Source: a virus | DNA: 64,000 nt | Direction: 5' to 3' (one strand) | IMG/VR virus record: IMGVR_UViG_3300031857_012982 | Location: 1 to 64,000 of that record | In this document: one piece after another, positions 32,208 through 57,343 of the stretch | Numbering within the stretch: the first letter of the stretch is position 1 | Layout: every line of letters begins with the position of its first letter | The notes under the pieces: model-generated | The model's database searches: none | Seen by the model: only the letters and a program-made list of their open reading frames with translations | Told to the model about the DNA's origin: nothing | Translations under genes and position numbers: made by a program

Positions 32208-32695
32208 TGAATTTAGATAAAGGAAAGTTTATTAATGCAGTATTTGCCAGCAGCAAAAAGAAATTAATTCTAGCAATTTGGCAAGACATCGAAACCAAAC
32301 AACAGCACGAAATAGCAATAGAAACAGATCTTAACAATAAAATGTATGTTAAATTATTAGAAACTTTCACCACAGACGAGATTTCTACAATGACAGATCA
32401 AAAACGCAAACATGCAGCAAAAAGTTGGGAATTAATAGTGAAAGATATTGCTGAAAAATATGGTTTAATATATGATCCTTCAGCAACTAATCCTCAAGAC
32501 AAATTGGTTATAGATCATTTATTCAATCCTCCAGAGGGAGAAGCAGGTATGGAATTATTATTCAATACTAAATTAAAAATATTTGATCTTCCACAAGTAA
32601 CTCAATCCACTAATTCTGAATTAAAGAAAAAACTTAGAGAAGCAAAAACTCCTTTAGAATCTCTATATATTGCCGGAAAATTTCTATACGAATAG
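32207..32695 (+). CDS. Conserved hypothetical protein
   Basis: A 162-residue, Lys-rich, largely helical protein that I cannot assign. Features: a strand-rich start (KLILAIWQDIETKQQHEIAI), an internal ETFTTDEISTMTDQKRKHAA helix and a C-terminal KKLREAKTPLESLYIAGKF helix. It is coupled to the upstream virion gene by TAATG, so it may be an assembly factor or minor virion protein. Its 3' end overlaps the convergent glycosyltransferase gene by 12 bases, marking the boundary of the minus-strand module. Confidence 0.6.
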   Translation: MNLDKGKFINAVFASSKKKLILAIWQDIETKQQHEIAIETDLNNKMYVKLLETFTTDEISTMTDQKRKHAAKSWELIVKDIAEKYGLIYDPSATNPQDKLVIDHLFNPPEGEAGMELLFNTKLKIFDLPQVTQSTNSELKKKLREAKTPLESLYIAGKFLYE

Positions 32696-35231: not shown

Positions 35232-35256
35232 GAATATATTATAGCAGTTTGATTAA

Positions 35257-37060: not shown

Positions 37061-37066
37061 GCTTAT

Positions 37067-37095
37067 ATTATACATTTATATATGGACAACAGCAA
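37067..37095 (-). promoter_or_regulatory. Sigma-70-like promoter for the minus-strand module
   Basis: On the minus strand TTGCTG (37095-37090), a 17-base spacer and a perfect TATAAT (37072-37067) lie directly before the radical SAM gene. Only six bases separate the -10 box from the ATG at 37060, so the transcript may start at or next to the start codon. A TATAAATG late-like octamer (37081-37074) overlaps the spacer. Confidence 0.5.
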
Positions 37096-41161: not shown

Positions 41162-42787
41162 ATGTCTTATACCATAAACAAAACCGATGGAACTAAACTA
41201 GTAGTACTGAAAGACGGTACAGTGGATATCACCACTACGGATTTGGCTCTATTCGGAAAAAGTTATGCAGGATTTGGTGAAAGATTAAACGAAAACTTCG
41301 TTAAAATGTTGGAAAATTTTGCCAACACCACAGCACCTGCTAATAAAATTCGAGGTCAATTATGGTATGACACTCTAACCAATCAAATCAAAGTTTGGAA
41401 TGGCAATAAATTTAAACCAGTAGGATCCAGCACCAATGCTAGCAGTGCTCCAACCAATGCCAATCTAGGAGACACATGGTTTGATACCAATAATCTTCAG
41501 CTGTATGTTTATAATGGCACTGCATGGACTTTGATTGGTCCTACCACAGTGGCAGGTTCAGGCAATACATCAGTGGTATCAGATTCTATCAGAGACAACG
41601 TAGGTGTATTCAAGTCGGTTCTAAAATTTGTAACCAATGACATTATAGTGGCCATGGTGAGTGCAGAAGAATTTATACCTCTCACAGCTATCACAGGATT
41701 TGCCACAATATATAAAGGTATCACACTTTCAACATCAGTGAGTCAGGCTAGATTCAAAGGTATAGCTACCACAGCACAGAATTTAATATTAGCGGATTTA
41801 ACCACAGTGGTACCAGCAGATAATTTTGTAAGAGCTGATGTCAATGACACTATGGCAGGTACACTGACTATATTCAATGATGGCGGAATGAGTTTAGGAG
41901 CAGGAGCAGATTTAACAGTCAGCGTGTCAGGTGGACAGGATGTGGTTTTTCAGAACAATACACTAAACGGAGACATAATTTTCAAAGTCAATGATGGCGG
42001 AGTGACCAAAACTGTGCTAACCATGGATGGCAGCGAAGGTGTAATCAAAGACCTTGTGGTGCAAAATTTAACAGTAACAGGAACAGAAACAATATTCAAT
42101 ACCACCACACTGGCAGTGGAAGACAACTTTATAGAATTAAACCTTGGCATATCTGGTGCGGCTTTCATGCCCAATTACACAGGATTAAAAGTCAACCGAG
42201 GAGAAACATCCACAGCTCTCGAATCAGATCTGTATTGGGTATGGGATGAAACATTTGCAGACGATTTTACAACCATATATGGCAACACTGGCGGAGCATG
42301 GACAGCATTCCGATCACAGGGCAACATCAATGACTCGGCTCCAACACTGGTAGATATTCGAGCCAACATAGTGCATGGTCGAGCTACCACAGCACAGTAC
42401 GCAGATCTTGCAGAAAGATACGCAGCAGACATGCTATTAGAAGCAGGCGATGTAGTGATACTTGGAGGCTCACAAGAAGTAACCAAATCTACACAAGAGT
42501 TAGATACTCGAGTATTTGGAGTGGTATCAGAATCTCCAGCATTTTTAATGAACAACGACGCAGGCAACAATGATTCACACCCTATGATAGCATTAAAAGG
42601 CAGAGTACGAGTAAAGGTAGAGGGTGTTGGTAAAGCAGGAGATCGTATTGTAAGCAGCAGTACGGCTGGTATAGCTAGAGTGGCAGATCTAGCAGAATGC
42701 ACTGCTTTTAATGTATTAGGACGACTAATTCAAGATAAATACTCGCAACAGACACAATTAACAGAGTGTGCAATAGGAGTTAAGTAA
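41162..42787 (+). CDS. Tail fibre-like protein, paralogue 3, with autochaperone-like C-terminus
   Basis: A 541-residue protein with the same N-terminal module as the genes at 29935 and 37164 (MSYTINKTDGTKLV, FGKSYAGFGERLNENFVKML, KIRGQLWYD, KVWNGNKFKPVG). Its C-terminal ~150 residues are different: YADLAERYAADMLLEAGDVV, GVVSESPAFLMN, ALKGRVRVKVEGVGKAGDRI and GRLIQDKY. This pattern is seen at the end of many phage fibre proteins and resembles intramolecular chaperone or autoproteolytic tail domains, but I cannot confirm a cleavage site. It is likely a receptor-binding fibre that folds with help from that domain. Confidence 0.7.
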   Translation: MSYTINKTDGTKLVVLKDGTVDITTTDLALFGKSYAGFGERLNENFVKMLENFANTTAPANKIRGQLWYDTLTNQIKVWNGNKFKPVGSSTNASSAPTNANLGDTWFDTNNLQLYVYNGTAWTLIGPTTVAGSGNTSVVSDSIRDNVGVFKSVLKFVTNDIIVAMVSAEEFIPLTAITGFATIYKGITLSTSVSQARFKGIATTAQNLILADLTTVVPADNFVRADVNDTMAGTLTIFNDGGMSLGAGADLTVSVSGGQDVVFQNNTLNGDIIFKVNDGGVTKTVLTMDGSEGVIKDLVVQNLTVTGTETIFNTTTLAVEDNFIELNLGISGAAFMPNYTGLKVNRGETSTALESDLYWVWDETFADDFTTIYGNTGGAWTAFRSQGNINDSAPTLVDIRANIVHGRATTAQYADLAERYAADMLLEAGDVVILGGSQEVTKSTQELDTRVFGVVSESPAFLMNNDAGNNDSHPMIALKGRVRVKVEGVGKAGDRIVSSSTAGIARVADLAECTAFNVLGRLIQDKYSQQTQLTECAIGVK

Positions 42788-42788
42788 A

Positions 42789-43814
42789 ATGGGTTATGTA
42801 GCAGGCGATAGAATTACCGTAACAGAATACAATCAGCAATTATTAAGTAATGCTACACTTGGAGGATATGGTATCAATCATATCATAGGACAAGGAGAAT
42901 TGTATCATGGTTTAGGAGAAGTAGGAGTAACCGCAATATCCCAAGGACAAGAAGTCACTGCCACTCAATGGAATTCACTGTTCACTGCTATGGATAACCT
43001 AGCCAACCATACCAATGACACTCTAACTTCCACAAGTCAAAGATCCGCAGGTGACCTTATCGAAGTTAAATCCGCTCTAATAGCAGATCTACAAACTCTA
43101 GCAGCATCGGTACAGGCAGGTTGTCCCAATGCCACAGCATTAACTACCACAGCAGCTCAGCAGACCACAGCAGCATCGGCTCGTTGGAACGTGTCTCATA
43201 TCGTAGAGCAATCAATCACATTTAATGCTCCTGATGCAATGAGATGGTTTTTTAATGCGGGAGGAAAAATACAGATCAACGTGACCAGAACCAGTAACTC
43301 AGGCAACGTAGCATCTGCAAAAGACCAAGCCATTGATGACTTAATCGATTCACTGGGAGATTTTAAAATCAAATCTCAATCATCAGAATATTCCAATGAT
43401 GGATCAACTAATACAAACACCCTAGGAGACGGCAGCTCAGCCTATGATTTAAACATTGGTTTTTACGATCTTACTACCAACTATCAAACCATACTGATAT
43501 TAAGACAAGACTGGCAGACCTATGAGTTTATGAACATTAAAATTGAAGCAAAATTAGATGCTGCTCCAGGCACAGCAATGACAATGACTGTGAGAACCTC
43601 TCTGTTAGATCCATTTATTGATGGATCATCAGCTGCAACAGCAGACAACACATATACCTCAGGCAACACAGCATCGGTAGATCAGTATGCCAACTGGATT
43701 GGTGTTACCAACGTAGTTTTATACTTTGTAAATCCTACCACAGCAGAAGGATTGAACACAGTATACACACCTGCCTCATCAGCAGTGATTTCCAACAATA
43801 TCGTTACAATATAA
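42789..43814 (+). CDS. Virion structural protein with fibre-type N-terminal motif
   Basis: A 341-residue protein. It begins GYVAGDRITVTEYNQQLLSN, a GDxIT-x-x-(D/E)YN pattern common at the start of phage tail proteins, followed by repeats of T-A-x-x-x-N (VTATQWNSLFTAMDNLANHT). The middle has a strand-rich part with YSNDGSTNTNTLGDGSSAYD. The C-terminus has YANWIGVTNVVLYFVNP. No enzyme motif is seen. An AGGAG lies upstream of the ATG and the gene is 1 base after fibre paralogue 3. It ends the structural block; the accessory operon begins about 50 bases later. Confidence 0.65.
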   Translation: MGYVAGDRITVTEYNQQLLSNATLGGYGINHIIGQGELYHGLGEVGVTAISQGQEVTATQWNSLFTAMDNLANHTNDTLTSTSQRSAGDLIEVKSALIADLQTLAASVQAGCPNATALTTTAAQQTTAASARWNVSHIVEQSITFNAPDAMRWFFNAGGKIQINVTRTSNSGNVASAKDQAIDDLIDSLGDFKIKSQSSEYSNDGSTNTNTLGDGSSAYDLNIGFYDLTTNYQTILILRQDWQTYEFMNIKIEAKLDAAPGTAMTMTVRTSLLDPFIDGSSAATADNTYTSGNTASVDQYANWIGVTNVVLYFVNPTTAEGLNTVYTPASSAVISNNIVTI

Positions 43815-43863: not shown

Positions 43864-44178
43864 ATGGATATACGATCCCTCAAACAGCAATCTGATCACA
43901 GTTTTAATCTAGCAGTGGCTAAAAAGAATGCTCTAGAACGAGCAAAAAGTCGACAACTGTTTGCTTATAAAGATCATCTATTTCGTGCTGATGCTGATAC
44001 CATAAATCTTGTGCATGCCTTGAAGCAGAACAATAGGAAGTTTTTTCTTCTAGATGCTAACGACAATCCTTGTGAAATTGCTAATCCAGAAGAATTCTTA
44101 CAGTTGTTAATAGAACGTAATCAAGAGACTCTTAATCAATATCATCAATTGCAAGAGCAATTAAAGAGCAAGGAGTAA
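43864..44178 (+). CDS. Hypothetical coiled-coil protein
   Basis: A 104-residue charged protein. It opens with a helix (DIRSLKQQSDHSFNLAVAKK), has a strand-turn part (LFRADADTINLVHALKQNNR, FFLLDANDNPCEI) and ends in a Gln/Glu-rich coiled coil. The layout is faintly like small phage fibre-assembly or DUF4376-type proteins, which is weak evidence. It is first in the accessory operon, with no clear ribosome binding site and a promoter directly upstream; the next gene starts 1 base after its stop. Confidence 0.55.
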   Translation: MDIRSLKQQSDHSFNLAVAKKNALERAKSRQLFAYKDHLFRADADTINLVHALKQNNRKFFLLDANDNPCEIANPEEFLQLLIERNQETLNQYHQLQEQLKSKE

Positions 44179-44179
44179 T

Positions 44180-44938
44180 ATGTCCACAGGAGCATTAATC
44201 TATTGTTTTAACTCTGAACAAGTACAGTATCATAGAACGACTAATTTTTGTATCGAATTAATAAAAAAGAATCTATCGTTACCTGTGACTGTAGTCACTA
44301 ACAATGCAACCAAAGAACATATTAAAGGTACAGATTCGTTAGTCGTAATAGATAATCAAAAGAACAATCAACGTTTTTATAAAGATAGAACGATACCTTG
44401 GTACAATCTTGAGAGATCTCATTCTTATGATTATTCACCCTATGATACTACTGCACTGTTAGATTCTGATTATTTTGTTTATACTAAGAACTTATTAGAA
44501 ACAATCAACAGCAGTTACGAATTTCTTCTGCATGACCGAGTGCATGATTTAACTGGTCGAGGCAGTTTTGAATACAATAATAGAAGTATGATACCGTTGG
44601 TATGGGCCACAGTAACCGTTTTTAAAAAAACACAGAGAGTAAAAAAAATATTTGATATGATCAAACACATACAACAAAATTATAGGTATTTCTGTAAACT
44701 ATACAGAATAGATTTTGCTAATTTTAGGAATGATTATGCTTTTGCCATGGCATTAAATCAGCTGGATGGATTCAATCAACAGTATTTCATGCCCACTGCT
44801 ATGAGCATGATACCCACAGATACCAAAGTTTTAAAAATAGATCACACAGGCATTATATTTCAATACGATAAATTTGTTAATCTAGTCACAGAACAGGATG
44901 TGCATGTGTTAGACAAGGAGATTCCGATTAATGTCTAA
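44180..44938 (+). CDS. Glycosyltransferase-like protein
   Basis: A 252-residue protein of GT-A-like layout: a first strand (GALIYCFNSEQVQYHRT), a second (LPVTVVTNN) and DTTALLDSDYFVYTKN with a D-S-D motif at about 95-97. This is the arrangement of phage-encoded sugar transferases, though family-level assignment is not secure. The C-terminal part has MIPTDTKVLKIDHTGIIFQY. It appears related in plan to the following gene, suggesting duplication. It overlaps that gene by 8 bases. Acceptor and donor are unknown. Confidence 0.55.
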   Translation: MSTGALIYCFNSEQVQYHRTTNFCIELIKKNLSLPVTVVTNNATKEHIKGTDSLVVIDNQKNNQRFYKDRTIPWYNLERSHSYDYSPYDTTALLDSDYFVYTKNLLETINSSYEFLLHDRVHDLTGRGSFEYNNRSMIPLVWATVTVFKKTQRVKKIFDMIKHIQQNYRYFCKLYRIDFANFRNDYAFAMALNQLDGFNQQYFMPTAMSMIPTDTKVLKIDHTGIIFQYDKFVNLVTEQDVHVLDKEIPINV

Positions 44939-45728
44939 AGGTTTTCTATGGTTTGCACAGAACAATGCTACCACTGATTATGCTAAAATTAGTGTGGAGT
45001 TAGCTAAATCTATTAAACTCATTAATAGAGATAATAATATTTGTGTAATAGTAGATAAGAATACTGCTTTGAACAGTGAATATATAGATCAAGTTGTTGT
45101 ATTAAAAGATGATGCCAGTGCAAACGCTGAAACTAAATTTGCCAATGAGCACAAGGCTTTTCGATTATCTCCATTTACTCACACTATAAAACTTGAAGCA
45201 GACATGTTGTTCACTGCCAATACTGACTGGTGGTGGCATCATCTATGTCAGCACGATCTTGTGTTTGCAGTCAATTGTAGAAATTATAAAGATAAGATAG
45301 TTAAAAATACACCTTATAGAAGACTATTTCAATTGAATCATCTGCCTGATATCTACAACGGATTAACATATTTTAGACGCAGTCAACGAGCTATGAAATT
45401 TTTTGATATTTGCCAATCAATCACAGAAAATTGGACTGCTGTACGAGAACAATTATTAATAAATTGTCATGATCTATACCCCACCACCGACGTAGTCTAT
45501 GCTCTAGCATATAGAATAATGGATCCTTTTAATCACAATTTAATAGATTATCCATGGTTTAAATTTATACATGGAAAATCTTCTGTGAATGAGATAACTG
45601 TAGCTGCTGATCAGTACAACTATCTTTATCCCGTAAAGTTAGCAGACAGAATCTATCTTGGAGGTAAGAGATTGGACAGAATTTGGCATTATCATGACAA
45701 AAAACTAATGGACACTATAAATGGATGA
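44931..45728 (+). CDS. Glycosyltransferase-like protein, related to its neighbour
   Basis: A 265-residue protein. It begins KGFLWFAQNNATTDYAKISV, then NICVIVDKN, and HTIKLEADMLFTANTDWWWH in which E-A-D-M replaces the usual DxD. That segment, with RLSPFTHTIKLEADML, is a pattern of GT-A-like enzymes in marine phages that often keep only one acidic residue. A GLTYFRRSQRAMKFFDICQS helix follows. It overlaps both neighbours by 8 bases, so the four genes from 44180 to 46934 are tightly coupled. Whether it is catalytic is open. Confidence 0.5.
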   Translation: MSKGFLWFAQNNATTDYAKISVELAKSIKLINRDNNICVIVDKNTALNSEYIDQVVVLKDDASANAETKFANEHKAFRLSPFTHTIKLEADMLFTANTDWWWHHLCQHDLVFAVNCRNYKDKIVKNTPYRRLFQLNHLPDIYNGLTYFRRSQRAMKFFDICQSITENWTAVREQLLINCHDLYPTTDVVYALAYRIMDPFNHNLIDYPWFKFIHGKSSVNEITVAADQYNYLYPVKLADRIYLGGKRLDRIWHYHDKKLMDTING

Positions 45729-46059
45729 AATATTCAAAGCATTAAATAGTTTTAAATCAACATCTGTTAATGATAACTTTTATATCGAAGTTAGAAACAA
45801 AGAAATAATAACTCTATGCAGAGAACCAAACGATAATACTGTTAAAATTTCACAACAGGACTATAAATTTCTATTAGACAAAGGTATAGAACGTTTCGTA
45901 TACGATCATGGAATCGTAAAAAAACCTAAAAAGAAAACACAAAGAGTTTTTGAAACCTTAAAAAAAGATATGCAAGGATACAATTTACAAGACAATGATC
46001 CTTATTGGCCTATAGAGATAGTGAAAGGAGGTTATACATGGCAAACACCGTGCGAGTAA
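45721..46059 (+). CDS. Hypothetical protein
   Basis: A 112-residue Lys-rich protein with a strand-helix beginning (NDNFYIEVRNKEIITLCREP, VKISQQDYKFLLDKGIERFV) and a basic KKPKKKTQRVF stretch. I cannot assign a family. It overlaps the gene before by 8 bases and the gene after by 22 bases; the downstream ribosome binding site (AAAGGAGG) lies inside its own coding end, a sign of tight coupling rather than of an unreal gene. It could be a small partner of the glycosyltransferase-like proteins. Confidence 0.55.
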   Translation: MDEIFKALNSFKSTSVNDNFYIEVRNKEIITLCREPNDNTVKISQQDYKFLLDKGIERFVYDHGIVKKPKKKTQRVFETLKKDMQGYNLQDNDPYWPIEIVKGGYTWQTPCE

Positions 46060-46934
46060 CTGATTTAGATTTTGTTTTTATTAGCTACAGAGAGCCCAAT
46101 GCTGATGAAAATTATGCTGATCTATTGAACATAGTGCCATGGGCAAAAAGAATACACGGAGTTAAGGGATTTGATAATGCTCATAAGGCTGCTGCTGAAC
46201 TAGCAGAGACAGATTTCTTTATCAGTATTGATGGAGACAATAGAATAGATCCTTTATTCCTATTACAAACTCTAGACTGGACTAAAACTAATCCTGCTGC
46301 TGTGCATCGTTGGAGAGCAAGAAACATTATTAATGGATTAGTGTATGGCAATGGAGGTATTGTGGGATGGCCTCGCAAAACCTGTTTGAACATGCGTACT
46401 CACGAAAATGCTGTGGATGAACGAGCCAAAATAGATTTTTGTTGGACTGTGCCACATGAGAATTTGCACAATGTATATTCTACAACACACATTAACCATA
46501 CTCCTGAACAGGCTTTTATTGCAGGATGGAGAGAAGGTGTAAAAATGAGTCTCAACAATGGACAGAAAGTGGATCCCGGCCTGTTCATGCAAACAATTCC
46601 TCAAAACAATCTAAGAAATTTAGTCACATGGATGAGTGTGGGTGCTGATGTGGACAACGGACGATGGGCTATGTTGGGTGCTAGATGTGGCTGTTATATG
46701 GCCACAATAGATTCAAACTATGATGTTACACTGGTTAGAGATTTAGAATTCATGAGCGACAAATTTTCCCGCATGATGTATGATATAGAATCTGATATTA
46801 TAGCTCATGGCAACTCTTTACGACAGAGATTGGGATTGCCTGTGGCAGATTTTGATGCAGAACAGAGTCGATTCTATAAGTTTTGTCAACAACCTTACAG
46901 AAACAAAGGAGTACAAGATCGTGAAAGCAAGTGA
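46038..46934 (+). CDS. GT2-like glycosyltransferase domain protein
   Basis: A 298-residue protein. The start is the ATG at 46038, preceded by a strong AAAGGAGG (46024-46031); an upstream in-frame ATG at 46005 lacks one. The N-terminal half reads LDFVFISYREPNADENYADL, HGVKGFDNAHKAAAELAETD and FFISIDGDNRIDPLFLL with D65-G-D67, the plan of a family 2 glycosyltransferase. The rest holds PRKTCLNMRTH and a helical tail. The same N-terminal pattern returns at 58402 without the acidic motif. Likely a transfer of sugar to a surface or virion acceptor; not proven. Confidence 0.65.
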   Translation: MANTVRVTDLDFVFISYREPNADENYADLLNIVPWAKRIHGVKGFDNAHKAAAELAETDFFISIDGDNRIDPLFLLQTLDWTKTNPAAVHRWRARNIINGLVYGNGGIVGWPRKTCLNMRTHENAVDERAKIDFCWTVPHENLHNVYSTTHINHTPEQAFIAGWREGVKMSLNNGQKVDPGLFMQTIPQNNLRNLVTWMSVGADVDNGRWAMLGARCGCYMATIDSNYDVTLVRDLEFMSDKFSRMMYDIESDIIAHGNSLRQRLGLPVADFDAEQSRFYKFCQQPYRNKGVQDRESK

Positions 46935-48303
46935 TTACAAACACAATGCTGATCAAGCACAGAAAAAATTAAACACAGTTAGCCCAAGTTTCTGTCTTGC
47001 GAAATGGAATCAGGTATCATTGCACCTGCCTACAGGATTAACCAACTCTTGTTATCATCCTCCACTGCATGAAATAGATGCAGGAGCATTGGCTCAAAAT
47101 CCTGCTGCTCTGCACAACACTGCACAGAAGATTGTAGAGAGACGACAGATGATTGCGGGAGAACGACCCGAAGGATGCTCCTATTGTTGGAAACTCGAAG
47201 ACGCTGGAGAGATGAGTGATCGCCACTATCGTAGTGGAGAACCATGGGCCATGCAGGATTTTGACAAGATAACGCAAGATCCTCTCAATGTTCAGCACAC
47301 ACCTTCGTATGTGGAAGTGAATTTTAACAATGCTTGCAATCTAAAATGCAGCTATTGTTCACCACAATTCAGCACCACGTGGGGCAAAGAGATAGATATC
47401 TATGGAGAATATCCTACCCATCCAGCACACAATGCACCCGAACACTTCATGGGTCGTAGAAAACCCATACCCAACAGAGAAAACAATCCCTATGTGGAAG
47501 CATTTTGGCGATGGTGGCCCGAATTGTATAAGAATTTAAAACATTTTCGCATGACTGGTGGAGAACCCATGATGGATAACAACACTTATCGAGTGTTTGA
47601 TTATATTATATCACATCCAAAACCTGATCTACATTTGAATGTTACATCTAATATGTGTCCACCCACAGACAAATTAAAGAATCAGTATTTTGATGCTGTC
47701 AAAAGAATGTGTTTAGATGAGAGCATCGAGCATTTCATGCAATTTGTATCTGTGGATGCTCATGGACCTCGTGCTGAATATATCCGACATGGTATGAATT
47801 ACAATCGTTTAATGGATAATGTGGATGAATTTTTAACTCGCATACCTGGACGCAACAGTGTGAGCTTTATTATAACCTATAATAATCTCAGTGTAACATC
47901 ACTGGATCGATTATTAGTGGATATTCGTCAATTGAGACAGAAACATTCTTCTACCTATCAGCGAGTGTGGTTCGACATACCTCTACTGCGTCAGCCAGCA
48001 TGGCAGCAGATCACTCTGCTTCCGGAAAGTTATCAAAGTATACACGAGAAAAACATAGAGTATATGAAACAGTACCAAGAGAACACTGATTCAGACAAGA
48101 AAGATTATGCTGTGTTTAAGGACTTTGAGATTCAAAAAATGCTGCGCAATCTTGCTTACTGGCGCAAACACACAGAAACAAATAATACGCAAAAAAAGAA
48201 TTTTTACGCATTTTTTGCAGAACATGATCGCAGGAGAGGTACGAGCTTTGAAAGAACATTTCCTGAGATGCAGGAATTTTGGCAGGAGTGTAAGAGTTTA
48301 TGA
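46921..48303 (+). CDS. Radical SAM protein 1 of 5, N-terminal twitch/SPASM-like domain
   Basis: A 460-residue protein. I place the start at a GTG (46921) with AAAGGAG nine bases before it; a longer frame from 46807 lies inside the previous gene. The N-terminal ~130 residues have a cysteine set SFCLAKW (C25), SCYHPP (C44) and EGCSYCW (C86, C89), which I read as an auxiliary-cluster twitch domain placed before the core. The core has C139-x3-C143-x2-C146 (CNLKCSYC), FRMTGGEPMM and NVTSNM, then a TIM-barrel-like remainder. A C-terminal HDRRRGTSFERTFPEM segment recurs in its paralogues. It overlaps both neighbours. Substrate unknown. Confidence 0.85.
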   Translation: MKASDYKHNADQAQKKLNTVSPSFCLAKWNQVSLHLPTGLTNSCYHPPLHEIDAGALAQNPAALHNTAQKIVERRQMIAGERPEGCSYCWKLEDAGEMSDRHYRSGEPWAMQDFDKITQDPLNVQHTPSYVEVNFNNACNLKCSYCSPQFSTTWGKEIDIYGEYPTHPAHNAPEHFMGRRKPIPNRENNPYVEAFWRWWPELYKNLKHFRMTGGEPMMDNNTYRVFDYIISHPKPDLHLNVTSNMCPPTDKLKNQYFDAVKRMCLDESIEHFMQFVSVDAHGPRAEYIRHGMNYNRLMDNVDEFLTRIPGRNSVSFIITYNNLSVTSLDRLLVDIRQLRQKHSSTYQRVWFDIPLLRQPAWQQITLLPESYQSIHEKNIEYMKQYQENTDSDKKDYAVFKDFEIQKMLRNLAYWRKHTETNNTQKKNFYAFFAEHDRRRGTSFERTFPEMQEFWQECKSL

Positions 48304-48950
48304 AAACAATAGGATTCTTTGGAGATAGTTTCTGTGCCGGCAGAGAACCCGAGAGCTGGTGTGTATTATTAGCCAATCAATTAAATGCTCGAATAGTGCA
48401 TTGGGGAGAACCTGGACGAAGTATATGGACTACTTTCTTTAAATTTAATCAATTGAACAAAACAAATAGATTACCTGATATCTGTGTTTTGTGTTATACA
48501 GAACCTTATAGATTGTATCATCCATCTTTAATACTTTCTGCTAATACTGCTCCTATGAAAGGAGTAGATCCTAAAATTTATGAAGCTCTAGAACAATATT
48601 TTATACATTTACACAGCTATGACAAAGATGAATTGTGTTATGAATATGCTCTAAAATGGTTTGATCATGATGTTCTATCTAAAATAAAGAATAAAACAAT
48701 TGTACAAACGTGGAGTTTTCGACCATTTGAACAATCAAAAAAAGATGCTGGTATAAAATTAAACAGTGGAATATTCGTTGATGAGAGCATGTATGCTCTA
48801 TCATTGAATCATGAATTAAATTTTTTACCTGGCAGAGGTGCTACCATGCCATGGGGCAAAGGCATAATCAACCATATGAGTGCTGAACAAAATAAACTTT
48901 GGGCTGATAAAGTTTATACAGCAATTAAAAACAATGAATCCAGATCTTGA
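48300..48950 (+). CDS. SGNH/GDSL-like hydrolase
   Basis: A 216-residue protein. The first strand reads KTIGFFGDSFCAGREPESWC, a GDS block with S10 as likely nucleophile, followed by the G-block WGEPGRSIWTTF. Near the C-terminus INHMSAEQNKLWADKVY places H192 where SGNH enzymes have their catalytic His. The usual Asn block is not clear. SGNH proteins are esterases or O-acetyl hydrolases and transferases of sugars or peptidoglycan, so a role in editing a glycan fits the operon. It overlaps the radical SAM genes before (4 bases) and after (17 bases). Confidence 0.7.
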   Translation: MKTIGFFGDSFCAGREPESWCVLLANQLNARIVHWGEPGRSIWTTFFKFNQLNKTNRLPDICVLCYTEPYRLYHPSLILSANTAPMKGVDPKIYEALEQYFIHLHSYDKDELCYEYALKWFDHDVLSKIKNKTIVQTWSFRPFEQSKKDAGIKLNSGIFVDESMYALSLNHELNFLPGRGATMPWGKGIINHMSAEQNKLWADKVYTAIKNNESRS

Positions 48951-50283
48951 ATATCGTAAACAAATATTAGATTCTCTATCTCCCAGTTTCTGTGGAGCCA
49001 AATGGTACAATGCTACCATATGGTTGGGATCTGGCATGACTACCAGTTGTCATCATCCACCTGCACATCGAGTGGATGTAGAAAAATTAAAAGATAATCC
49101 TCGATTATTGCACAACACTCCTCAAAAGAAACAGGATCGTGCTAAAATGATTGCTGGTGAAAGACCTGCAGGTTGTGAATATTGCTGGAAAATAGAAGAC
49201 ATGGGCAGAGATGCTGTGAGTGATAGAGTATATAAAAGTAAAATTTATCCAGATGCAGAATTAGAAAGAGCATTCAATACTCCTATCACAGAAGACATTA
49301 ATCTCAAAACTCTAGAGATTGCTTTTGATAGAACATGTAATTTTGCTTGTTCTTATTGTAATCCTGCATTTAGTACCACATGGGTAAGAGATATAAAACA
49401 AAATGGTCCTTATAAAGATTTAATATCAGATGGTAGAAATCATTTTACTCATCCTCATGATGGTGCACAATTGTACAAAGACACAGAAGAAAATCCCTAT
49501 GTGGAAGCATTCTTTCGATGGTGGGAGACAGATTTACACAAAACTCTAGATGAATTAAGAATCACAGGCGGAGAGCCCATGATGAGTCCTTCTTTGTGGA
49601 GATTATTAGATTGGTTTGAAACACAGGGAGAACGAATTAATCCCAATATGAGATTGGCCATTAACTCTAACTTAGTACCCAAGGCAGAATTATTTGAAAA
49701 ATTTGTAGATAAATGTAAAAAAATAAAAAATTTACATATCTATACTTCCAATGAATCAACGTATGCTCATTCAGATTATATTAGAGATGGAATGAATTAT
49801 ACTAATTGGTATGTAAATTTTGTTAATGTAATTAATCAAATAAGACCTGCAGGACTGCACAACATGTGTACAGTAAATGCTCTGTGTCTAGAATCATTAC
49901 CTCAGTTTTTAGATGTTATTATAAGAAATAAATTAGATGCTAAAAGAGTTTATGGAGTAGATGTAAACTTTACTTTAAACATACTGAGATTTCCTAGTTT
50001 TCAATCGCCTTTAGTATTGCCAGATTATCTAAGAACAGAATTCAAAGACAATTTATCACAATGGCTAGACACAAATATAGCTCATTGCGAGTTTATGGAA
50101 GTATCTCATGTGCAAAGATTAATAGATTATCTAGATGTGGTTAAAACACCTCATTCTGAAGCATTTGATTTACCAAGACTAAGGTCTGATTTCAAAAATT
50201 TCTATAAACAATACGATGTAAGAAGAGGCAAAGATTTTGCAAAAACATTCACAAGAATAGGAGAGTGGTACCGTGGCTTATGA
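48934..50283 (+). CDS. Radical SAM protein 2 of 5, N-terminal twitch/SPASM-like domain
   Basis: A 449-residue paralogue of the protein at 46921. I use the ATG at 48934 (MNPDLEYRKQ); the longer frame runs into the SGNH gene. N-terminal Cys set: SFCGAKW (C20), TSCHHPP (C39), AGCEYCW (C81, C84). Core cluster motif CNFACSYC (C135, C139, C142), then RITGGEPMM and AINSNL. The shared phrases NPYVEAFFRWW (NPYVEAFWRWW in protein 1), YIRDGMNY and a final RRGKDF-x-KTF show it is closest to protein 1. Substrate unknown. It overlaps the next radical SAM gene by 11 bases. Confidence 0.85.
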   Translation: MNPDLEYRKQILDSLSPSFCGAKWYNATIWLGSGMTTSCHHPPAHRVDVEKLKDNPRLLHNTPQKKQDRAKMIAGERPAGCEYCWKIEDMGRDAVSDRVYKSKIYPDAELERAFNTPITEDINLKTLEIAFDRTCNFACSYCNPAFSTTWVRDIKQNGPYKDLISDGRNHFTHPHDGAQLYKDTEENPYVEAFFRWWETDLHKTLDELRITGGEPMMSPSLWRLLDWFETQGERINPNMRLAINSNLVPKAELFEKFVDKCKKIKNLHIYTSNESTYAHSDYIRDGMNYTNWYVNFVNVINQIRPAGLHNMCTVNALCLESLPQFLDVIIRNKLDAKRVYGVDVNFTLNILRFPSFQSPLVLPDYLRTEFKDNLSQWLDTNIAHCEFMEVSHVQRLIDYLDVVKTPHSEAFDLPRLRSDFKNFYKQYDVRRGKDFAKTFTRIGEWYRGL

Positions 50284-51565
50284 GTATGGGGCTAAAGAGC
50301 CTGAAAAATTAAAAATTAAGGACATGACTGAACGTCAGAAAGAGTTATTGTTAGATAGTAAAACTTTCTGTATGCTGCCTTGGATGCATATACATTCGTA
50401 TCCGGATGGTCGAGCCTATCCTTGTTGTTTTGCATTAGATTCTTATCCTATTGGTGATTTGAATAAGAGTTCTATGGAAGAAGTATTCAACGGAGAAGCA
50501 ATGAAAGAGATGAGAACGAACATGTTAGAGAATAAAACTTCTAAGCAATGTGCAAAATGTTATGATCAAGAAAAAGCCGGTTTCTTCAGTATGAGATTGA
50601 GTTCAAATAAACATTTTGGACACAATATAGGATTAACAGATGCTACACAGCCAGACGGTACTGCTGATTTTATAATCAAATATTGGGATATAAGATTTAG
50701 TAATCTTTGTAATTTTGCTTGTAGAAGTTGTGGCACGTGGTTTAGTTCTAATTGGTACGAGGATCATAAAAAACTCACAGGAGCTCCTCCCCCACATGCA
50801 AAAATTATGCGAGTAGGCAGATCAGAGAATGATATATGGGAACAGTTATTGCCACAAATAGATCATATGGAACAGATTTATTTTGCTGGAGGAGAACCCC
50901 TGATCATGGAAGAACATTATAGAATTTTAAAAGAATTAGATCGTAGAAAGTTATATCACGTGAGATTAACTTACAATACAAATTTTAGTAAATTAACTTT
51001 TAAAGATATGGATGTCTTAGAATTATGGAACAAATTTCACACAGTATCAATAGGTGCTAGTTTAGATGCTGAAGGGGAAAGAGCCGAAGTTATAAGAAAA
51101 GGCACAGTATGGAAGGATATTGTAGAAAATAGAAAAAGAATGATAGAAGTTTGTCCAAAGGTAGATTTCTATATCAGTGCTACAGTTAGCATGATCAATG
51201 CATTACATATTCCAGACTTTCATAGAAGTTGGGTTGAACAAGGTCTTATTAAACCTCAAGATTTTAATTTTAATCTATTACAAATGCCAAAATGGCAAAG
51301 AATGGATAATTTACCCAAGGAATATAAAGAACGTATTGAAAAGAAATATCTTGCACATATAGAATGGTTAAAAGACAAAGATCATTTAACTAGAGCAACC
51401 AAAGGTTTTGAGAGTGCATTAAAATGGATGAACATGACCGACAATACAAAAAATTTACCTATGTTTTTTGAATTATCAAAAAAATATGATAATATCAGAG
51501 GAGAAAGTTTAGTAAAAACATTTCCAGAGCTGACAGAATTATTCGAAAAATATGAAAAAAATTAA
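50273..51565 (+). CDS. Radical SAM protein 3 of 5, N-terminal twitch/SPASM-like domain
   Basis: A 430-residue protein. N-terminal domain: TFCMLPWMHIHSYPDGRAYP followed by CCFALD (C33, C51-C52) and KQCAKCYDQE (C93, C96), which resembles the auxiliary-cluster part that usually sits at the C-terminus of SPASM proteins. Core: C146-x3-C150-x2-C153 (CNFACRSC), IYFAGGEPLIM and TYNTNFS. A GASLDAEGERAEVIRKG segment follows, as in peptide-modifying family members. It ends in RGESLVKTFPELTELFEK, the C-terminal phrase of this paralogue set. It is followed by a 14-base overlap with the next copy. Confidence 0.87.
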   Translation: MAYEYGAKEPEKLKIKDMTERQKELLLDSKTFCMLPWMHIHSYPDGRAYPCCFALDSYPIGDLNKSSMEEVFNGEAMKEMRTNMLENKTSKQCAKCYDQEKAGFFSMRLSSNKHFGHNIGLTDATQPDGTADFIIKYWDIRFSNLCNFACRSCGTWFSSNWYEDHKKLTGAPPPHAKIMRVGRSENDIWEQLLPQIDHMEQIYFAGGEPLIMEEHYRILKELDRRKLYHVRLTYNTNFSKLTFKDMDVLELWNKFHTVSIGASLDAEGERAEVIRKGTVWKDIVENRKRMIEVCPKVDFYISATVSMINALHIPDFHRSWVEQGLIKPQDFNFNLLQMPKWQRMDNLPKEYKERIEKKYLAHIEWLKDKDHLTRATKGFESALKWMNMTDNTKNLPMFFELSKKYDNIRGESLVKTFPELTELFEKYEKN

Positions 51566-52856
51566 ACCTACAGAAGGTAACCGAACGTTTTGTATGGCGC
51601 CTTGGACACATACCTATCTCTCTCCGCAAACAGAGAGAAGAATGTGTTGTGCTTCTAGAGAACCAGCTCAAAGTTTTCGTCAATACATCGACAGAGAAGG
51701 TGATTTAAAAGAATATAATCCTGAAACACTGGAACAGCATTGGAACAACGAGCATATGCGTAGTGTGCGAAAAAGAATGATGGCAGGAGAAACTCTGCCA
51801 GAATGTCAGGTATGCAATGATAAACTACTCAATACTGATGTTTATAGAGATTACTTTAATAATCTTTTCCGTCACAAGATAGATGATGCTTTTGAAAAGA
51901 CCGATAATACAGGTTATACAGAGATGAAGACTGTGAGTTTTGATTATCGTTTCAATAATCTTTGTAATTTTAAATGCCGTCAATGCGGAGATATGCTAAG
52001 TTCTAGTTGGGAATCAGAACAAAGAAACTATGATATGTGGTCACCAGAACGTCAACCTTGGATGGCATCTCCACTAAGACAACAAATTTCTTTCTTTCAA
52101 GACAGCACAGTAGTCATGGAATTTATGAATGCCATAGAAGAAAAACGTATGGAAGAGATTTATTGGGTAGGCGGAGAACCTTTAATGTGGGATATACACT
52201 GGAACGCTATGGCTAGAATCATTGATTTAAAATTCAGCGATAAAGTTTATGTAAGATACAATACCAATTTAAGTCGTACAGAATTTAAAGGTAAAAAACT
52301 CTTTGAATTATTAAGACAATTCCGCGATTGGCAAGTGTGTGCTTCTATTGATGGTACAGGAGAGATTGGAGAGTACATTAGAACAGGATTAAACTACAAA
52401 AAATTTATAGAAAATTTTAAAGAAGGATTAGCTGTAGCTCGTAACAAAAGACAGATGCAATTAGACTTTACAATTACAATGCCTGGCCTACAAGAAATTC
52501 CTAATATGTTTGATCTATCTCAACAATTAAATGCTAAACTTTTAACCAAAGTTACATTTGCATTTGATTCTCAGCAGATAATGAGTCCAATGTGTCTGCC
52601 AAAAACTTTATTAAATGAAATTATAGATGAAAATCTAGCTTATATTCGACCTAGAGCAACTCCTCTACAACAAAGTTTAATAGATGTATTGGAGAATATG
52701 AAAACTCGTCCTACATTTTGGGAAGAATACCCCAAAGCAGAAATAGGTATTCGCAGCGGCAAAACAAGATGTGAACGAATTGATGCTATTCGAAGCACAG
52801 ATATTAAAAAAATATTAACGGATAAAAGATTATTAGAATGGTGGAAAAATATATAA
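51552..52856 (+). CDS. Radical SAM protein 4 of 5, N-terminal twitch/SPASM-like domain
   Basis: A 434-residue protein. N-terminal cysteines: RTFCMAPWTHTYLSPQTERR with MCCASRE (C14, C32-C33) and ECQVCNDKLL (C85, C88). Core: C138-x3-C142-x2-C145 (CNFKCRQC), IYWVGGEPLMW and RYNTNLS, then CASIDGTGEIGEYIRTGLNY. Unlike its siblings the C-terminus ends in TDIKKILTDKRLLEWWKNI rather than the KTFPE phrase. It overlaps the next copy by 19 bases. The five copies are clearly different in sequence, so each may have its own substrate or step. Confidence 0.87.
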   Translation: MKKIKPTEGNRTFCMAPWTHTYLSPQTERRMCCASREPAQSFRQYIDREGDLKEYNPETLEQHWNNEHMRSVRKRMMAGETLPECQVCNDKLLNTDVYRDYFNNLFRHKIDDAFEKTDNTGYTEMKTVSFDYRFNNLCNFKCRQCGDMLSSSWESEQRNYDMWSPERQPWMASPLRQQISFFQDSTVVMEFMNAIEEKRMEEIYWVGGEPLMWDIHWNAMARIIDLKFSDKVYVRYNTNLSRTEFKGKKLFELLRQFRDWQVCASIDGTGEIGEYIRTGLNYKKFIENFKEGLAVARNKRQMQLDFTITMPGLQEIPNMFDLSQQLNAKLLTKVTFAFDSQQIMSPMCLPKTLLNEIIDENLAYIRPRATPLQQSLIDVLENMKTRPTFWEEYPKAEIGIRSGKTRCERIDAIRSTDIKKILTDKRLLEWWKNI

Positions 52857-54010
52857 AATCTAATATGTGTGTGCTGCCATGGACACATCTAGAAGTAGAT
52901 GTTAATGGTTCCGCATCGCCTTGCTGTCTTTATAAAGGAGAAATAGGAGATTATAAAGTTTATCGAGATAATCTTGATACTATACAGAATTCAGAATATA
53001 TGAATGATTTAAGAGCTCAATTCCGCCGAGGTGAACGTCCTGCAGGTTGCAGTAATTGTTGGCAGGAGGAAGACGCTGGCAAAATCAGTAAAAGAATGAA
53101 TTCTATCTATAAAATGAAAAATAGTTTACAAAATTGGACACCAGAAACAACGCCCACTTTAAAATTTATTGATTTTAAACTAGGCAATGTGTGTAATTTA
53201 AAATGTCGTATATGCGGCAGTTGGAGCAGTTCAAAATGGGCTCAGGAAGAGATTGCCTATGGTCCAAATCCTCTAGCAAAGAAACAATTAGATGAAGGAC
53301 AATGGCCCAAACGAAATCCTGCTTTCTTTGAAGATATTAAACCTGTATTAAAAGATGTAGAATATTTTGAGTTTACAGGTGGTGAGCCTTTTATGATAGA
53401 AAATCATTTTAAAATATTAGAACACTGTGTGGAACAAGGTTATGCTCGCAATCAAGATATACATTATAATACCAATGGCACACAATTGCCTGATCGAAGA
53501 GTGTTTTGGTTATGGAGCCAATTTAAACATGTAGAAATTGCATTCAGTATTGACGACACAGGAGCAGCGTTTGAATATCAACGTCATCCTGCTAAGTGGG
53601 AACAAGTCAAAGAGAATTTAAAAGAATTTAATATAAGATCCACACTTACAGGCAATACTGATTTTCAAATCTGTTCCACAATTAATATCTTTAATATATT
53701 AAATTTAGACACTTTAGTCGAATGGGTTAAAGAATTTAATCCTAAATTCCTATATATTAATACTCTATTTGATCCTGAATATTTTAATGTACAAACACTA
53801 CCTATAGAACTAAAAAAGATAGTAACAGAAAAATATAAAAATATAAAAGAATTAGATACTATAATCGGTTATATGAATAGTGCAGATCGATATTCTGATA
53901 CTATACACGAACAAAGAAAGAAAAGAATACTGCAAGCAGATCGATACAGAGAAGAAAATTTTGCTGAGGTTTTTCCAGAGTTAAATAATTTTTTAAAGAT
54001 ATATGAGTAA
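52838..54010 (+). CDS. Radical SAM protein 5 of 5, N-terminal twitch/SPASM-like domain
   Basis: A 390-residue protein, the shortest of the set. N-terminal cysteines: NMCVLPWTHLEVDVNGSASP then CCLYKG (C11, C29-C30) and AGCSNCWQEEDAGK (C71, C74). Core: C119-x3-C123-x2-C126 (CNLKCRICGSWSSSKW), FEFTGGEPFMI and YNTNGTQ, then AFSIDDTGAAFEYQRHPAKW. The final REENFAEVFPELNNFL matches the C-terminal phrase of copies 1-3. This copy is the most like free-standing marine bacterial twitch radical SAM proteins in plan. It overlaps the following SGNH-like gene by 8 bases. Confidence 0.87.
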   Translation: MVEKYIKSNMCVLPWTHLEVDVNGSASPCCLYKGEIGDYKVYRDNLDTIQNSEYMNDLRAQFRRGERPAGCSNCWQEEDAGKISKRMNSIYKMKNSLQNWTPETTPTLKFIDFKLGNVCNLKCRICGSWSSSKWAQEEIAYGPNPLAKKQLDEGQWPKRNPAFFEDIKPVLKDVEYFEFTGGEPFMIENHFKILEHCVEQGYARNQDIHYNTNGTQLPDRRVFWLWSQFKHVEIAFSIDDTGAAFEYQRHPAKWEQVKENLKEFNIRSTLTGNTDFQICSTINIFNILNLDTLVEWVKEFNPKFLYINTLFDPEYFNVQTLPIELKKIVTEKYKNIKELDTIIGYMNSADRYSDTIHEQRKKRILQADRYREENFAEVFPELNNFLKIYE

Positions 54011-54812
54011 AATTTTCTTATCAGGTGGTTGCAGTTTTACATATGGACACGAGTTGTCTGATGATAAAAACGGAAAAATACCTTCTCAAAAGACTTGGGC
54101 AGCACTATTGGCTAAAAATATTCCAGCAGATTATAAAACAGTAGCATGGGCAGGATCAGGTAATGCAGGCATAGCAAGACGAGTATTTGAATATATTTCA
54201 CAAAACAAAGAACAAGATATATTTGTTTCTATTATGTGGACTTTTGTTTCACGCTATGATTGGGCAATGCCTAGGAATGCAGTATTAGAAAAAACAAGAT
54301 GGGCTACAATTACTCCCTGGGACACATCAGATAATCAAGCAGAAGTACAAAAAACATTGGCTGCTAGTGAACCACAATTGGAAATATGGAAAACAAGAAG
54401 AGAAACTTTAAGAAATACAGGAGTAGGACCATTTGCTGATGCTCTTTATAAACATGCAGCTAATCAATATCATGAAGCTTATCTCAGTTGGAAGAGTATC
54501 GTTTGGTTACAAAATATACTGGAAAAAAAGAAAATAAAATATATGTTTACTCTAGCTGATAATACTCTATTTTACAATGAGCTGGAACCATTGAATAGAG
54601 TTGATCCTTTATTAAATGCGTTGTATAATGAAATAGACTTCAGTCGATGGTTTGTATTTGGAGAAAGACATATGGGATTCAATCAATGGGCAGTATTGAA
54701 TGATTATCCACGTGGTACCACACATCCTTTGGATGAAGCACATAGAGATTCAGCAAAATTAATGAAAGATAAATTTTTTGAAATTTATACTAAAAAACAG
54801 GAGGCACTATGA
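54003..54812 (+). CDS. SGNH-like hydrolase
   Basis: A 269-residue protein. The start reads SKIFLSGGCSFTYGHELSDD, a GCSFTxG block with S11 as likely nucleophile, common in phage SGNH proteins. WAGSGNAGIARRVFEY supplies the Gly block, and GTTHPLDEAHRDSAKLM holds the His end (H241, H247). It is not closely like the SGNH protein at 48300, so the operon carries two different members bracketing four of the radical SAM genes. Removal or transfer of acyl groups on a glycan or peptide is plausible. It overlaps a 34-residue gene by 4 bases. Confidence 0.7.
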   Translation: MSKIFLSGGCSFTYGHELSDDKNGKIPSQKTWAALLAKNIPADYKTVAWAGSGNAGIARRVFEYISQNKEQDIFVSIMWTFVSRYDWAMPRNAVLEKTRWATITPWDTSDNQAEVQKTLAASEPQLEIWKTRRETLRNTGVGPFADALYKHAANQYHEAYLSWKSIVWLQNILEKKKIKYMFTLADNTLFYNELEPLNRVDPLLNALYNEIDFSRWFVFGERHMGFNQWAVLNDYPRGTTHPLDEAHRDSAKLMKDKFFEIYTKKQEAL

Positions 54813-54914: not shown

Positions 54915-56405
54915 ATGAGAATATTAGGAATTAATTGTCTAAATCACGATGCTGCTATGGCTGTGGTTGAAGATGGAGAAATCCTATGGGCGGCACATGC
55001 AGAAAGATACAGCAAAGATAAGAATGATCACTATCTCAATTGGCAAATAGTAAATGAAGCTCGCGAATACGGACCATGGGACAAAGTGGTTTATTATGAA
55101 AGACCTCTGTTAAAGAAAACTCGACAAGCCCGTGCTGGTCAATGGTCAGAAGTTTTTTCTCGAACAAATATACCACAAAATTATTTAGATGCGTTTGGAA
55201 TACGAATAGATGAATATGTGAGTCATCACGAATCTCATGCTGCTGCAGGATTTTTTACATCTCCGTTCTATGATGCAATGGTACTAACAGTGGATGCCAT
55301 AGGAGAATGGGATACCACTTCGATATGGCAAGCTCAAGGCAAACGATTAGATCTATGCTACAAAATCAAATATCCTCATTCATTGGGTTTACTCTATTCA
55401 GCGTTTACACAGAGAGTAGGACTCAAACCTGCTGAAGAAGAATATATTCTAATGGGCATGGCAGCATATGGAGAACCTAGATATGTGGCAGAAATCTATA
55501 GAGACCTTGTGGATAGAGATGGAGATTTTGCATTAAAGAAAAATTTACATAAAGGATTGGGCAATTGGTTACCAGAAGCTGATCCTATGGACCTAGCAGC
55601 CAGTATACAAAAAGTTACGGAACGAGAATTAGAAAAATTATGGCGTAAGACTCGACAGTACATACCTGCAAGTCAAATAGCAGTTAGTCGATACGGCAAC
55701 AAAAGAAATCTAGTGTATGGTGGTGGTGTGGCTCTTAATTGTGTGGCCAACAGTAAATTGGCCAATCTAGGATTATTTGACAACATATGGATCATGCCTA
55801 ACCCAGGTGATGCCGGCAGTTCCATTGGTTGTATTGCAGCCGCTGAACGAAAACATATCCATTGGCGTCATCCTTTCCTAGGACACAACATAGAAGGGGA
55901 ATATCCTGTGGATCACTTAATAAAAGAATTAGAAAAAAATCGTATGGTAGGAGTAGCGAATGGCAGAGCTGAATTTGGACCACGAGCACTTGGTAATAGA
56001 TCATTGCTGGCAGATCCACGTGGCAATGATATCAAAGATTTGGTAAATCGTATCAAACAAAGACAGGAATTTCGACCATTTGCACCCGCTATACTAGAGG
56101 AGGATTTACATGAATATTTTGAGGTGCCTAAGTGCGTTGTAAACACCCCTTATATGCAATTTATAGGCATTTGTAAGCATGGTAAAGACTTTCCTGCCAT
56201 TGTGCATCATGACGGTACAAGTCGTGTGCAAACAGTGAATAAAACGCAGAATCCAGGCTTTTACCAACTGTTAAAAACATGGAAGGAAAAAACCGGATGT
56301 CCAATGCTGTTAAACACATCACTGAATATCAAAGGTGAACCCATAGTGAATGATATCAAGGATGCGGAACGCTTCGAAACCAAGTATAATGTAAGAGTAT
56401 GTTAA
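54915..56405 (+). CDS. NodU/CmcH-family carbamoyltransferase
   Basis: A 496-residue protein with the family's landmarks: GINCLNHDAAMAVVEDG (H11, D12), VSHHESHAAAGFF (H104, H105, H108), LTVDAIGEWDTTS, YILMGMAAYGEP, VYGGGVALNCVANSKL, MPNPGDAGSSIG and GRAEFGPRALGNRSLLADPR. These enzymes transfer carbamoyl from carbamoyl phosphate to hydroxyl groups of sugars, Nod factors, antibiotics or tRNA-like targets. It is slightly shorter than most relatives (about 550-600) and ends soon after GEPIVNDIKDAERF. Being next to an epimerase and an aminotransferase argues for a sugar acceptor. It overlaps the next gene by 7 bases. Confidence 0.9.
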   Translation: MRILGINCLNHDAAMAVVEDGEILWAAHAERYSKDKNDHYLNWQIVNEAREYGPWDKVVYYERPLLKKTRQARAGQWSEVFSRTNIPQNYLDAFGIRIDEYVSHHESHAAAGFFTSPFYDAMVLTVDAIGEWDTTSIWQAQGKRLDLCYKIKYPHSLGLLYSAFTQRVGLKPAEEEYILMGMAAYGEPRYVAEIYRDLVDRDGDFALKKNLHKGLGNWLPEADPMDLAASIQKVTERELEKLWRKTRQYIPASQIAVSRYGNKRNLVYGGGVALNCVANSKLANLGLFDNIWIMPNPGDAGSSIGCIAAAERKHIHWRHPFLGHNIEGEYPVDHLIKELEKNRMVGVANGRAEFGPRALGNRSLLADPRGNDIKDLVNRIKQRQEFRPFAPAILEEDLHEYFEVPKCVVNTPYMQFIGICKHGKDFPAIVHHDGTSRVQTVNKTQNPGFYQLLKTWKEKTGCPMLLNTSLNIKGEPIVNDIKDAERFETKYNVRVC

Positions 56406-57343
56406 AAATATTGGTAACAGGTGGTGAAGGTTTTATAGGCGGTTGGATTGTGGAAAAATTGTCTCAGATGGGACATAGAGTTACTACTCTAGATTCTGGA
56501 GAAACCTATGATGTGATTGAAAGGCAAGATCTAGATAGATTATGCCGTTGGAGACAGAGGAATTGGAAACGAGTTACAAAAATATCAGGCAATGTGACCA
56601 TGCCTTTGGATCGTGTGTGGTTGAAAAAACAAGATATTGTGATACATCTAGCATCTTATCCCAGAGCTAGAATAGTGCATGATCATCCAGAAATGGGAGT
56701 AGAGAACATAGTGGTAGGTACCACAGGAATGTTACAAGATTGTGTGGAGTATGGTGTAAAAAGATTTGTTTATGTTTCTTCCAGTATGATATATGGAGAT
56801 TTTGCAGATGGAGCAGATGAAAAAACTGCACCAAATCCTATCAATATCTACGGAGAAGCCAAGTTAACAGGAGAAAGATTAACGCAACAATTTAATAGAT
56901 CATTTGGATTGGAATATGTGATAGCAAGGCCCAGCGGAGTATACGGAGCAGGTGATATTCCAGATAGAGTATTAAGTAAATTTTTTGATGCTGCTATGAA
57001 TAATCAAAATATTTCAGTGCATGGTGCTGATAATCGAGTGGACTTTACCTACGTAGAAGATGCAGCAGACGGTATTATTCGTTGTGCTCTAGAAAAACAA
57101 GCAGCCAATAAAATTTTTAATATTACAGCAGGCAGTGCAAACAGTTTAGGAGAAGCAGCCAAAAAAATTATTCAATTAACAGGTAGTAAGAGTCAGATTA
57201 AAGACACAGGAAAAAATAAATTATATCCCAATAGAGGCACGTTAGATGTATCTCAAGCACAACAATTATTAGGATATAGGCCTCAACACAGTTTTGATCA
57301 AGGTATTGCAAAGTATTATGAGTGGTTACAAAATAAAATTTAA
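56399..57343 (+). CDS. NAD-dependent sugar epimerase/dehydratase
   Basis: A 314-residue extended SDR protein: GGEGFIGG at 8-15 (NAD-binding), a conserved HLAS (83-86), SSSMIYG with the catalytic Ser, and Y151-x3-K155 (IYGEAK). RPSGVYGAGD and FTYVEDAADGI are typical of UDP/GDP-sugar epimerases and dehydratases. The exact reaction (4-epimerisation, 4,6-dehydration, or other) cannot be read from this. The paralogue at 59727 has the same motifs. It overlaps the carbamoyltransferase gene (7 bases) and the aminotransferase gene (26 bases), so the three form one unit for a modified sugar. Confidence 0.88.
   Translation: MLKILVTGGEGFIGGWIVEKLSQMGHRVTTLDSGETYDVIERQDLDRLCRWRQRNWKRVTKISGNVTMPLDRVWLKKQDIVIHLASYPRARIVHDHPEMGVENIVVGTTGMLQDCVEYGVKRFVYVSSSMIYGDFADGADEKTAPNPINIYGEAKLTGERLTQQFNRSFGLEYVIARPSGVYGAGDIPDRVLSKFFDAAMNNQNISVHGADNRVDFTYVEDAADGIIRCALEKQAANKIFNITAGSANSLGEAAKKIIQLTGSKSQIKDTGKNKLYPNRGTLDVSQAQQLLGYRPQHSFDQGIAKYYEWLQNKI

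Follow-up and report, generated by a model that had tools for sequence, protein, structure and literature searches.

What does a phage do with five consecutive radical S-adenosylmethionine (SAM) enzymes? The question is raised by five coupled genes, designated A to E, on the + strand at 46921-54010 of the virus record IMGVR_UViG_3300031857_012982, of which bases 1-64000 (the whole stretch analyzed, 64,000 nucleotides, hereafter the window) out of 70,822 bp were studied. To carry five enzymes that are sensitive to oxygen and use up SAM is expensive for a phage, and still the complete set has been retained in many uncultured phage contigs that differ widely from one another. The initial annotation of the window had noted a cysteine domain in front of the catalytic core in all five and had proposed a phage-borne pathway of five related radical reactions on one peptide, sugar or lipid. 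The analysis indicated that the enzymes belong to a known family and that the five-gene unit with its partner genes seems new. We tentatively propose that a five-step radical pathway makes or decorates a carbamoylated amino sugar, which is attached by the glycosyltransferases encoded next to it, probably to the tail fibre.

The five genes were found at the positions and with the coupling first described. The bounds given here are the most likely ones, taken from the starts of orthologues. A (46921-48303, GTG start, orthologues in about 80 loci) and B (48934-50283, ATG start) have longer open frames from 46807 and 48880, respectively, and in both cases the orthologues favour the shorter form. 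They are followed by C (50273-51565), D (51552-52856) and E (52838-54010), with 11, 14 and 19 bases shared between B and C, C and D, and D and E, respectively. Between A and B, and overlapping both, lies a gene for an SGNH/GDSL-like protein of 216 aa (f17, 48300-48950, +), which was assigned by eye and had no Pfam match in the family scan.

Alignment of A to E showed that the N-terminal Cys of a CxxxW motif, a second Cys, a CxxC pair, the three Cys of the core and GGEP are invariant. The second Cys is a CC pair in C, D and E, and the N-terminal spacing across the five is C-x17/18-C-x40/51-C-x2-C. The core motif CxxxCxxC starts at residues 139, 135, 146, 138 and 119 in A, B, C, D and E, respectively, which is exactly the range of 119-146 read from the letters alone in the initial annotation, together with GGEP and the N-terminal Cys set. 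The same positions are invariant in the ortholog alignments of each of the five, so the motif set is not a product of chance. The AlphaFold2 model of C was confident (predicted local distance difference test score (pLDDT), 91; predicted template modelling score, 0.88), and a Foldseek search with its core retrieved the radical SAM enzymes CteB, BlsE, anSME, viperin and MoaA with E values down to 2e-6. The invariant motif and these core matches agree with membership in the radical SAM superfamily, which is recognized by CxxxCxxC and a partial TIM-barrel core.

The domain in front of the core was assigned by profile comparison. Pfam SPASM (PF13186) was found at the N-terminus above its cut-off in C (residues 33-97) and E (residues 11-75) and just below it in D. 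The best Protein Data Bank (PDB) match of a joint N-terminal profile of C and E was the C-terminal twitch domain of BtrN, the twitch radical dehydrogenase of butirosin biosynthesis (residues 166-237, E 3e-4), with the cluster Cys aligned. The corresponding profile of A and B had no PDB match of its own; it aligned with the C and E profile by hhalign (E 5.5e-9). Because C and E are tied to PF13186 and BtrN, and A and B are tied to C and E, the N-terminal domain of all five is assigned, at the level of sequence profiles, as a twitch domain that precedes the core, in support of the SPASM/twitch-type domain suggested before. The extra N-terminal Cys residues are predicted to bind an auxiliary Fe-S cluster, and in BtrN four Cys fully ligate such a [4Fe-4S] cluster (PMC6231123). 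In BtrN the twitch follows the core, whereas in A to E it precedes the core; with the order permuted, A to E do not fit the BtrN-like dehydrogenases, which would share both domain order and substrate.

The front-placed twitch is not a new architecture. All five proteins matched NF033640 (N_Twi_rSAM, "twitch domain-containing radical SAM protein") over almost the full profile, far above its cut-off of 170 bits (A, 322; B, 286; C, 419; D, 307; E, 377), and share the front-placed twitch with this family. The family model describes no five-member set, and no known reaction was found for the family. A sixth radical SAM gene in the window (36044-37075, -) carries its extra Cys on the C-terminal side, as had been noted; it scored merely 45 bits with NF033640, and direct comparison of its C-terminal domain with the N-terminal domain of A to E was weak (E 0.01, but a probability of 4%). 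One more gene matching NF033640, with 249 bits and thus above the cut-off, lies just outside the window and away from the cassette (G000:65267-66376, -; L009:12265-13383), and a further radical SAM fragment was observed at the end of the 70,822-bp record.

Are the five genes a unit? A scan of viral contigs with an alignment of the five proteins retrieved at least 557 relatives, the best 80 of which were kept, and a more specific scan with B orthologues retrieved at least 591, the best 80 of which (59-93% identity) were used for the locus counts below; this second sample is biased toward relatives of the B gene in the window, and related sequences in it are not independent. Among these 80, A lay upstream of B in all 77 viral loci with enough flank, and C, D and E were all downstream of B in 56/56. 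Two orders predominated among 53 loci, ABCED (21) and ABCDE (19), the remainder being minor variants, and the cassette recurred in records of 250-347 kb. In a tree of 356 family members, each of A to E formed its own clade over 43-80 loci, with support of 0.998 for A and B, 0.91 for C and about 0.72 for D and E. Judged from this tree, the five diverged long ago as paralogues, and each belongs to an orthologous group of its own; recent tandem duplication was rejected because every clade is distinct and extends over 43-80 loci, and because identities to A are only 21-34%. This near-invariant co-occurrence supports the idea of a five-step pathway, and if A to E do act in sequence, the run of radical SAM enzymes is unusually long for one pathway, in viruses.

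The cassette has conserved partners. Directly upstream, in fixed order on the + strand, are f4, a tail-fibre-like virion protein gene (41162-42787) with a weak match to the Peptidase_G2 chaperone domain (PF11962, E 2.7e-4); f2, a virion protein family beside the fibre (42789-43814); f3, a small conserved protein gene (43864-44178); two GT8-type glycosyltransferase-like genes of one family and profile, f1 (44180-44938 and 44931-45728); a gene for a small protein of about 110 aa of the f6/f15 family (45721-46059); and f0 (46005-46934), whose 3' end overlaps the start of A. In the B loci, f0 was present in 77/77, f1 in 75, f2 in 74, f3 in 72 and f4 in 69. The AlphaFold2 model of f0 (pLDDT 92.6) matched chondroitin polymerase, WrtF, RmlT and SunS in Foldseek, and f0 is accordingly modelled as a glycosyltransferase of GT-A fold, while the f1 profile (A11) resembled glycogenin weakly (E 0.003). 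Pseudomonas phage PA5oct has homologues of both f4 and f2 (gp360 for f2), and these are annotated as detected by electrospray ionization tandem mass spectrometry, i.e. seen in virions. A scan based on f0 showed that the fibre and glycosyltransferase block also occurs where radical SAM genes are lacking or where the set is incomplete (0-4 genes).

Downstream on the + strand, an SGNH-like gene assigned by eye (f10, 54003-54812, no Pfam or NCBIfam match) precedes f8 (54915-56405), an O-carbamoyltransferase of the NodU/TobZ/NovN type (PF16861, PF02543) with PDB matches to novobiocin carbamoyltransferase, GdmN and TobZ. They are followed by a nucleoside diphosphate (NDP)-sugar dehydratase/epimerase of the short-chain dehydrogenase/reductase (SDR) type (56399-57343, PF01370; best NCBIfam relative dTDP-glucose 4,6-dehydratase, below cut-off), a PseC-like DegT/DnrJ sugar aminotransferase (57294-58412; PF01041, E 1.3e-79; TIGR03588, 182 bits, below cut-off) and a second glycosyltransferase-like gene of the f0 family, assigned by family clustering (58402-59730). 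The carbamoyltransferase gene was downstream of B in 56/56 loci. In f0 loci whose downstream sequence extends for 9 kb or more, it accompanied every set of five or more radical SAM genes (9/9) and was missing wherever such genes were lacking (0/9), indicating that f8 belongs with the radical SAM cassette rather than with the fibre and glycosyltransferase block, which exists independently of the cassette. The SGNH-like f10 gene was likewise found in 9/9 five-gene loci and in 0/9 loci without radical SAM genes.

These linkages lead to the glycan pathway. The cassette is conserved as a unit with f0, f1, f2 and f4 upstream and f8 downstream; its partners are of sugar type (f0 of GT-A fold, the weakly glycogenin-like f1, f8, the NDP-sugar dehydratase and the PseC-like aminotransferase); f8 tracks the radical SAM set, and bacterial relatives also stand beside carbamoyltransferase, GT2 or SDR genes; and BtrN, the best PDB match of the N-terminal domain, is an aminocyclitol dehydrogenase. 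The fibre is suggested as the target because the f4 and f2 homologues of PA5oct are virion proteins by mass spectrometry. For the substrate class, the order of the steps, the sugar product and its attachment to the fibre, we infer the following. A nucleotide amino sugar would be made by the phage (dehydratase at 56399, aminotransferase at 57294) or taken from the host. A to E would then remodel the sugar, or a short glycan bearing it, in succession through reactions at C-H bonds, for example dehydrogenation, deoxygenation or epimerization; each enzyme would form the 5'-deoxyadenosyl radical at its SAM cluster, with the N-terminal twitch cluster accepting or donating an electron, as proposed for BtrN. 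f8 and the SGNH-like proteins may add or trim carbamoyl and acyl groups, and three glycosyltransferases (two f1 and f0) would transfer the product to an acceptor, most probably the adjacent fibre proteins f4 and f2. A bolder version is doubtful. In it, a widespread phage pathway would take a single glycan through five radical SAM reactions, all of them required and in sequence, and the resulting sugar, without a known counterpart in cells, would decorate the tail fibre and control adsorption or evasion. If the proposal holds, it would suggest that many of the "radical SAM auxiliary metabolic genes" of marine viromes decorate virions and do not serve host metabolism. The strict partners, three glycosyltransferases and a carbamoyltransferase, make the question directly testable.

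Several observations weigh against a sugar substrate or a virion target. No solved close relative of any of the five enzymes acts on a sugar, and the core matches include the peptide-modifying CteB and anSME besides BlsE, viperin and MoaA. In the cultured Sinorhizobium phage Phosso (L340:10999-18739), a cupin-domain gene and four radical SAM/SPASM genes lie directly behind the f4 homologue, and the weak best matches of the latter are peptide maturases. These four genes have the core first and do not exceed the NF033640 cut-off, unlike A to E, which points to more than one recruitment of radical SAM chemistry at this fibre-adjacent slot; closeness to fibre genes may mark just a variable cargo slot. 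On a Bacteriovoracaceae contig (L103:4049-16045), genes of all five types (A to E) are clustered without f0 or f1 beside rpmA (ribosomal protein L27) and obg, and this position makes the cluster chromosomal. The strongest rival is that A to E act directly on protein, by cross-linking, epimerizing or oxidizing side chains of the fibre or another virion protein, while the glycosyltransferases do a separate job. Most solved SPASM/twitch enzymes use peptides, fibre genes accompany the module, the radical SAM/SPASM genes of Phosso also follow the fibre gene, and C-like relatives in an Elusimicrobiota genome are fused to long tetratricopeptide repeat (TPR) arrays, which usually bind proteins. We nevertheless consider it unlikely: Pfam and NCBIfam scans detected no RRE, no precursor-like peptide with a variable core was recognized among open reading frames of at least 80 aa, and the link to the carbamoyltransferase and glycosyltransferases is strict. 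The f6/f15 protein, considered as a small precursor, was rejected since its alignment is conserved along the length, with no hypervariable core and no leader/core pattern.

Other products and targets were weighed on the same evidence. Phage glycan-modifying gene sets often alter the host envelope, and amino sugar and carbamoyl genes suit O-antigen-type products, so the glycan could be one of the host surface, changed during infection for instance for superinfection exclusion, and not a virion decoration. Such a role does not seem probable, as the glycosyltransferase block is kept with the fibre even where radical SAM genes are absent, the window showed no gene for a flippase, a polymerase or a membrane O-antigen function, and the genes are co-directional behind structural genes, suggesting late expression. 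On this last point, the T4 late-promoter motif TATAAATA occurs once in the window (6476-6483, +; 8.7 expected by chance), just upstream of a + strand structural run at 6543, which is too little to prove late expression, and the shorter TATAAAT motif was uninformative. A free small molecule acting on the host or on rivals, such as a nucleotide analogue, a cofactor, or an aminocyclitol-like or guanidino compound, would fit the BtrN twitch match together with the TobZ-like carbamoyltransferase, both reminiscent of aminocyclitol antibiotics, as well as the viperin match of the core and an amidinotransferase-like gene at 836-1873 (+), a family member of which lies inside one module (L046). It is very unlikely, given that glycosyltransferases are the most constant partners and no exporter was seen; a viperin-type antiviral nucleotide synthase was itself rejected, since no score with NF038283 exceeded 28.5 bits, far below the cut-off of 180. 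That the five genes form no pathway at all, and that a hypervariable slot gathered paralogues each with its own substrate, would fit the partial sets of 0-4 genes behind the same glycosyltransferase block and the single C-like genes of many bacteria. It is very unlikely in view of the separate ancient orthologous groups and a C, D and E complement complete in 56/56 loci, in two dominant orders, across 59-93% identity. The initial annotation had held that finding the genes alone in unrelated contexts would speak against a joint pathway; such single bacterial genes and partial phage sets do exist, yet the complete set of five is found together again and again.

Relatives in bacteria and other phages were surveyed further. 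Single C-like members were common among the bacterial matches, chiefly in Bacteroidota and Bdellovibrionota, and sometimes adjoined carbamoyltransferase, GT2 or SDR genes (L106, L129, L116, L100); a Pfam census of the bacterial neighbours showed no one dominant partner. B-type genes were detected in 11 of 192 Bdellovibrionota genomes at a strict threshold. Of the 82 N_Twi_rSAM matches in one Elusimicrobiota genome bin (G026; L097-L112), many are tandemly arranged and joined to the TPR arrays in open reading frames of 600-1200 aa. Among 50,697 phage records, no cultured phage bearing the cassette and no match to f0 or f1 was found, and the sole matches to A or C were from Vibrio phages K566 and K567 (23-24% identity), which have five NF033640-like genes of a different kind, one of them annotated as hypothetical in K566 (L328). 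Phosso, whose four radical SAM genes follow its f4 homologue, is an accessible laboratory system. The baseplate gp6-like protein of the record, which is a fragment, was 34-37% identical to those of jumbo phages such as Phosso, Atu_ph07 and RaK2, and by its homologous baseplate wedge and fibre genes the record is assigned to the T4-like jumbo phages.

Multiple radical SAM genes are on record in marine T4-like phages, as "cassettes" in pelagimyophages (PMC7029224) and as 12 genes in an environmental T4-like genome (PMC5332604). In the parts of these two descriptions consulted, no five-gene fixed order, permuted domain, link to carbamoyltransferase or glycosyltransferases, or function is given. 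The claim that no five-gene phage system had been described thus stands in that no paper on this five-gene unit was found, and has to be narrowed in that multiple and cassette-borne radical SAM genes of marine phages had been reported. Other papers mention phage radical SAM genes with no established function, and in the literature covered, which was a part, no paper linked a carbamoyltransferase with radical SAM genes in phage genomes. Baltic viral auxiliary genes named "ahbD" number 261 instances, few of them with both expected domains (PMC9301287); these may be misnamed N_Twi_rSAM genes.

Further genes of the record were observed away from the cassette. Three fibre genes of the f4 family are present (29935, 37164 and 41162, +), and the first two enclose a minus-strand block at 32684-37075 with methyltransferase-like (by eye), QueC-like and radical SAM genes. 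The amidinotransferase-like protein at 836-1873 matches arginine:glycine amidinotransferase and SxtG over its C-terminal part, and its relative in L046 is encoded between f0 and A. The QueC-like gene (35257-36117, -) adjoins the radical SAM gene at 36044, and a gene at the end of the record (70085-70822) is QueE-like by eye; together, the two may point to 7-deazaguanine chemistry.

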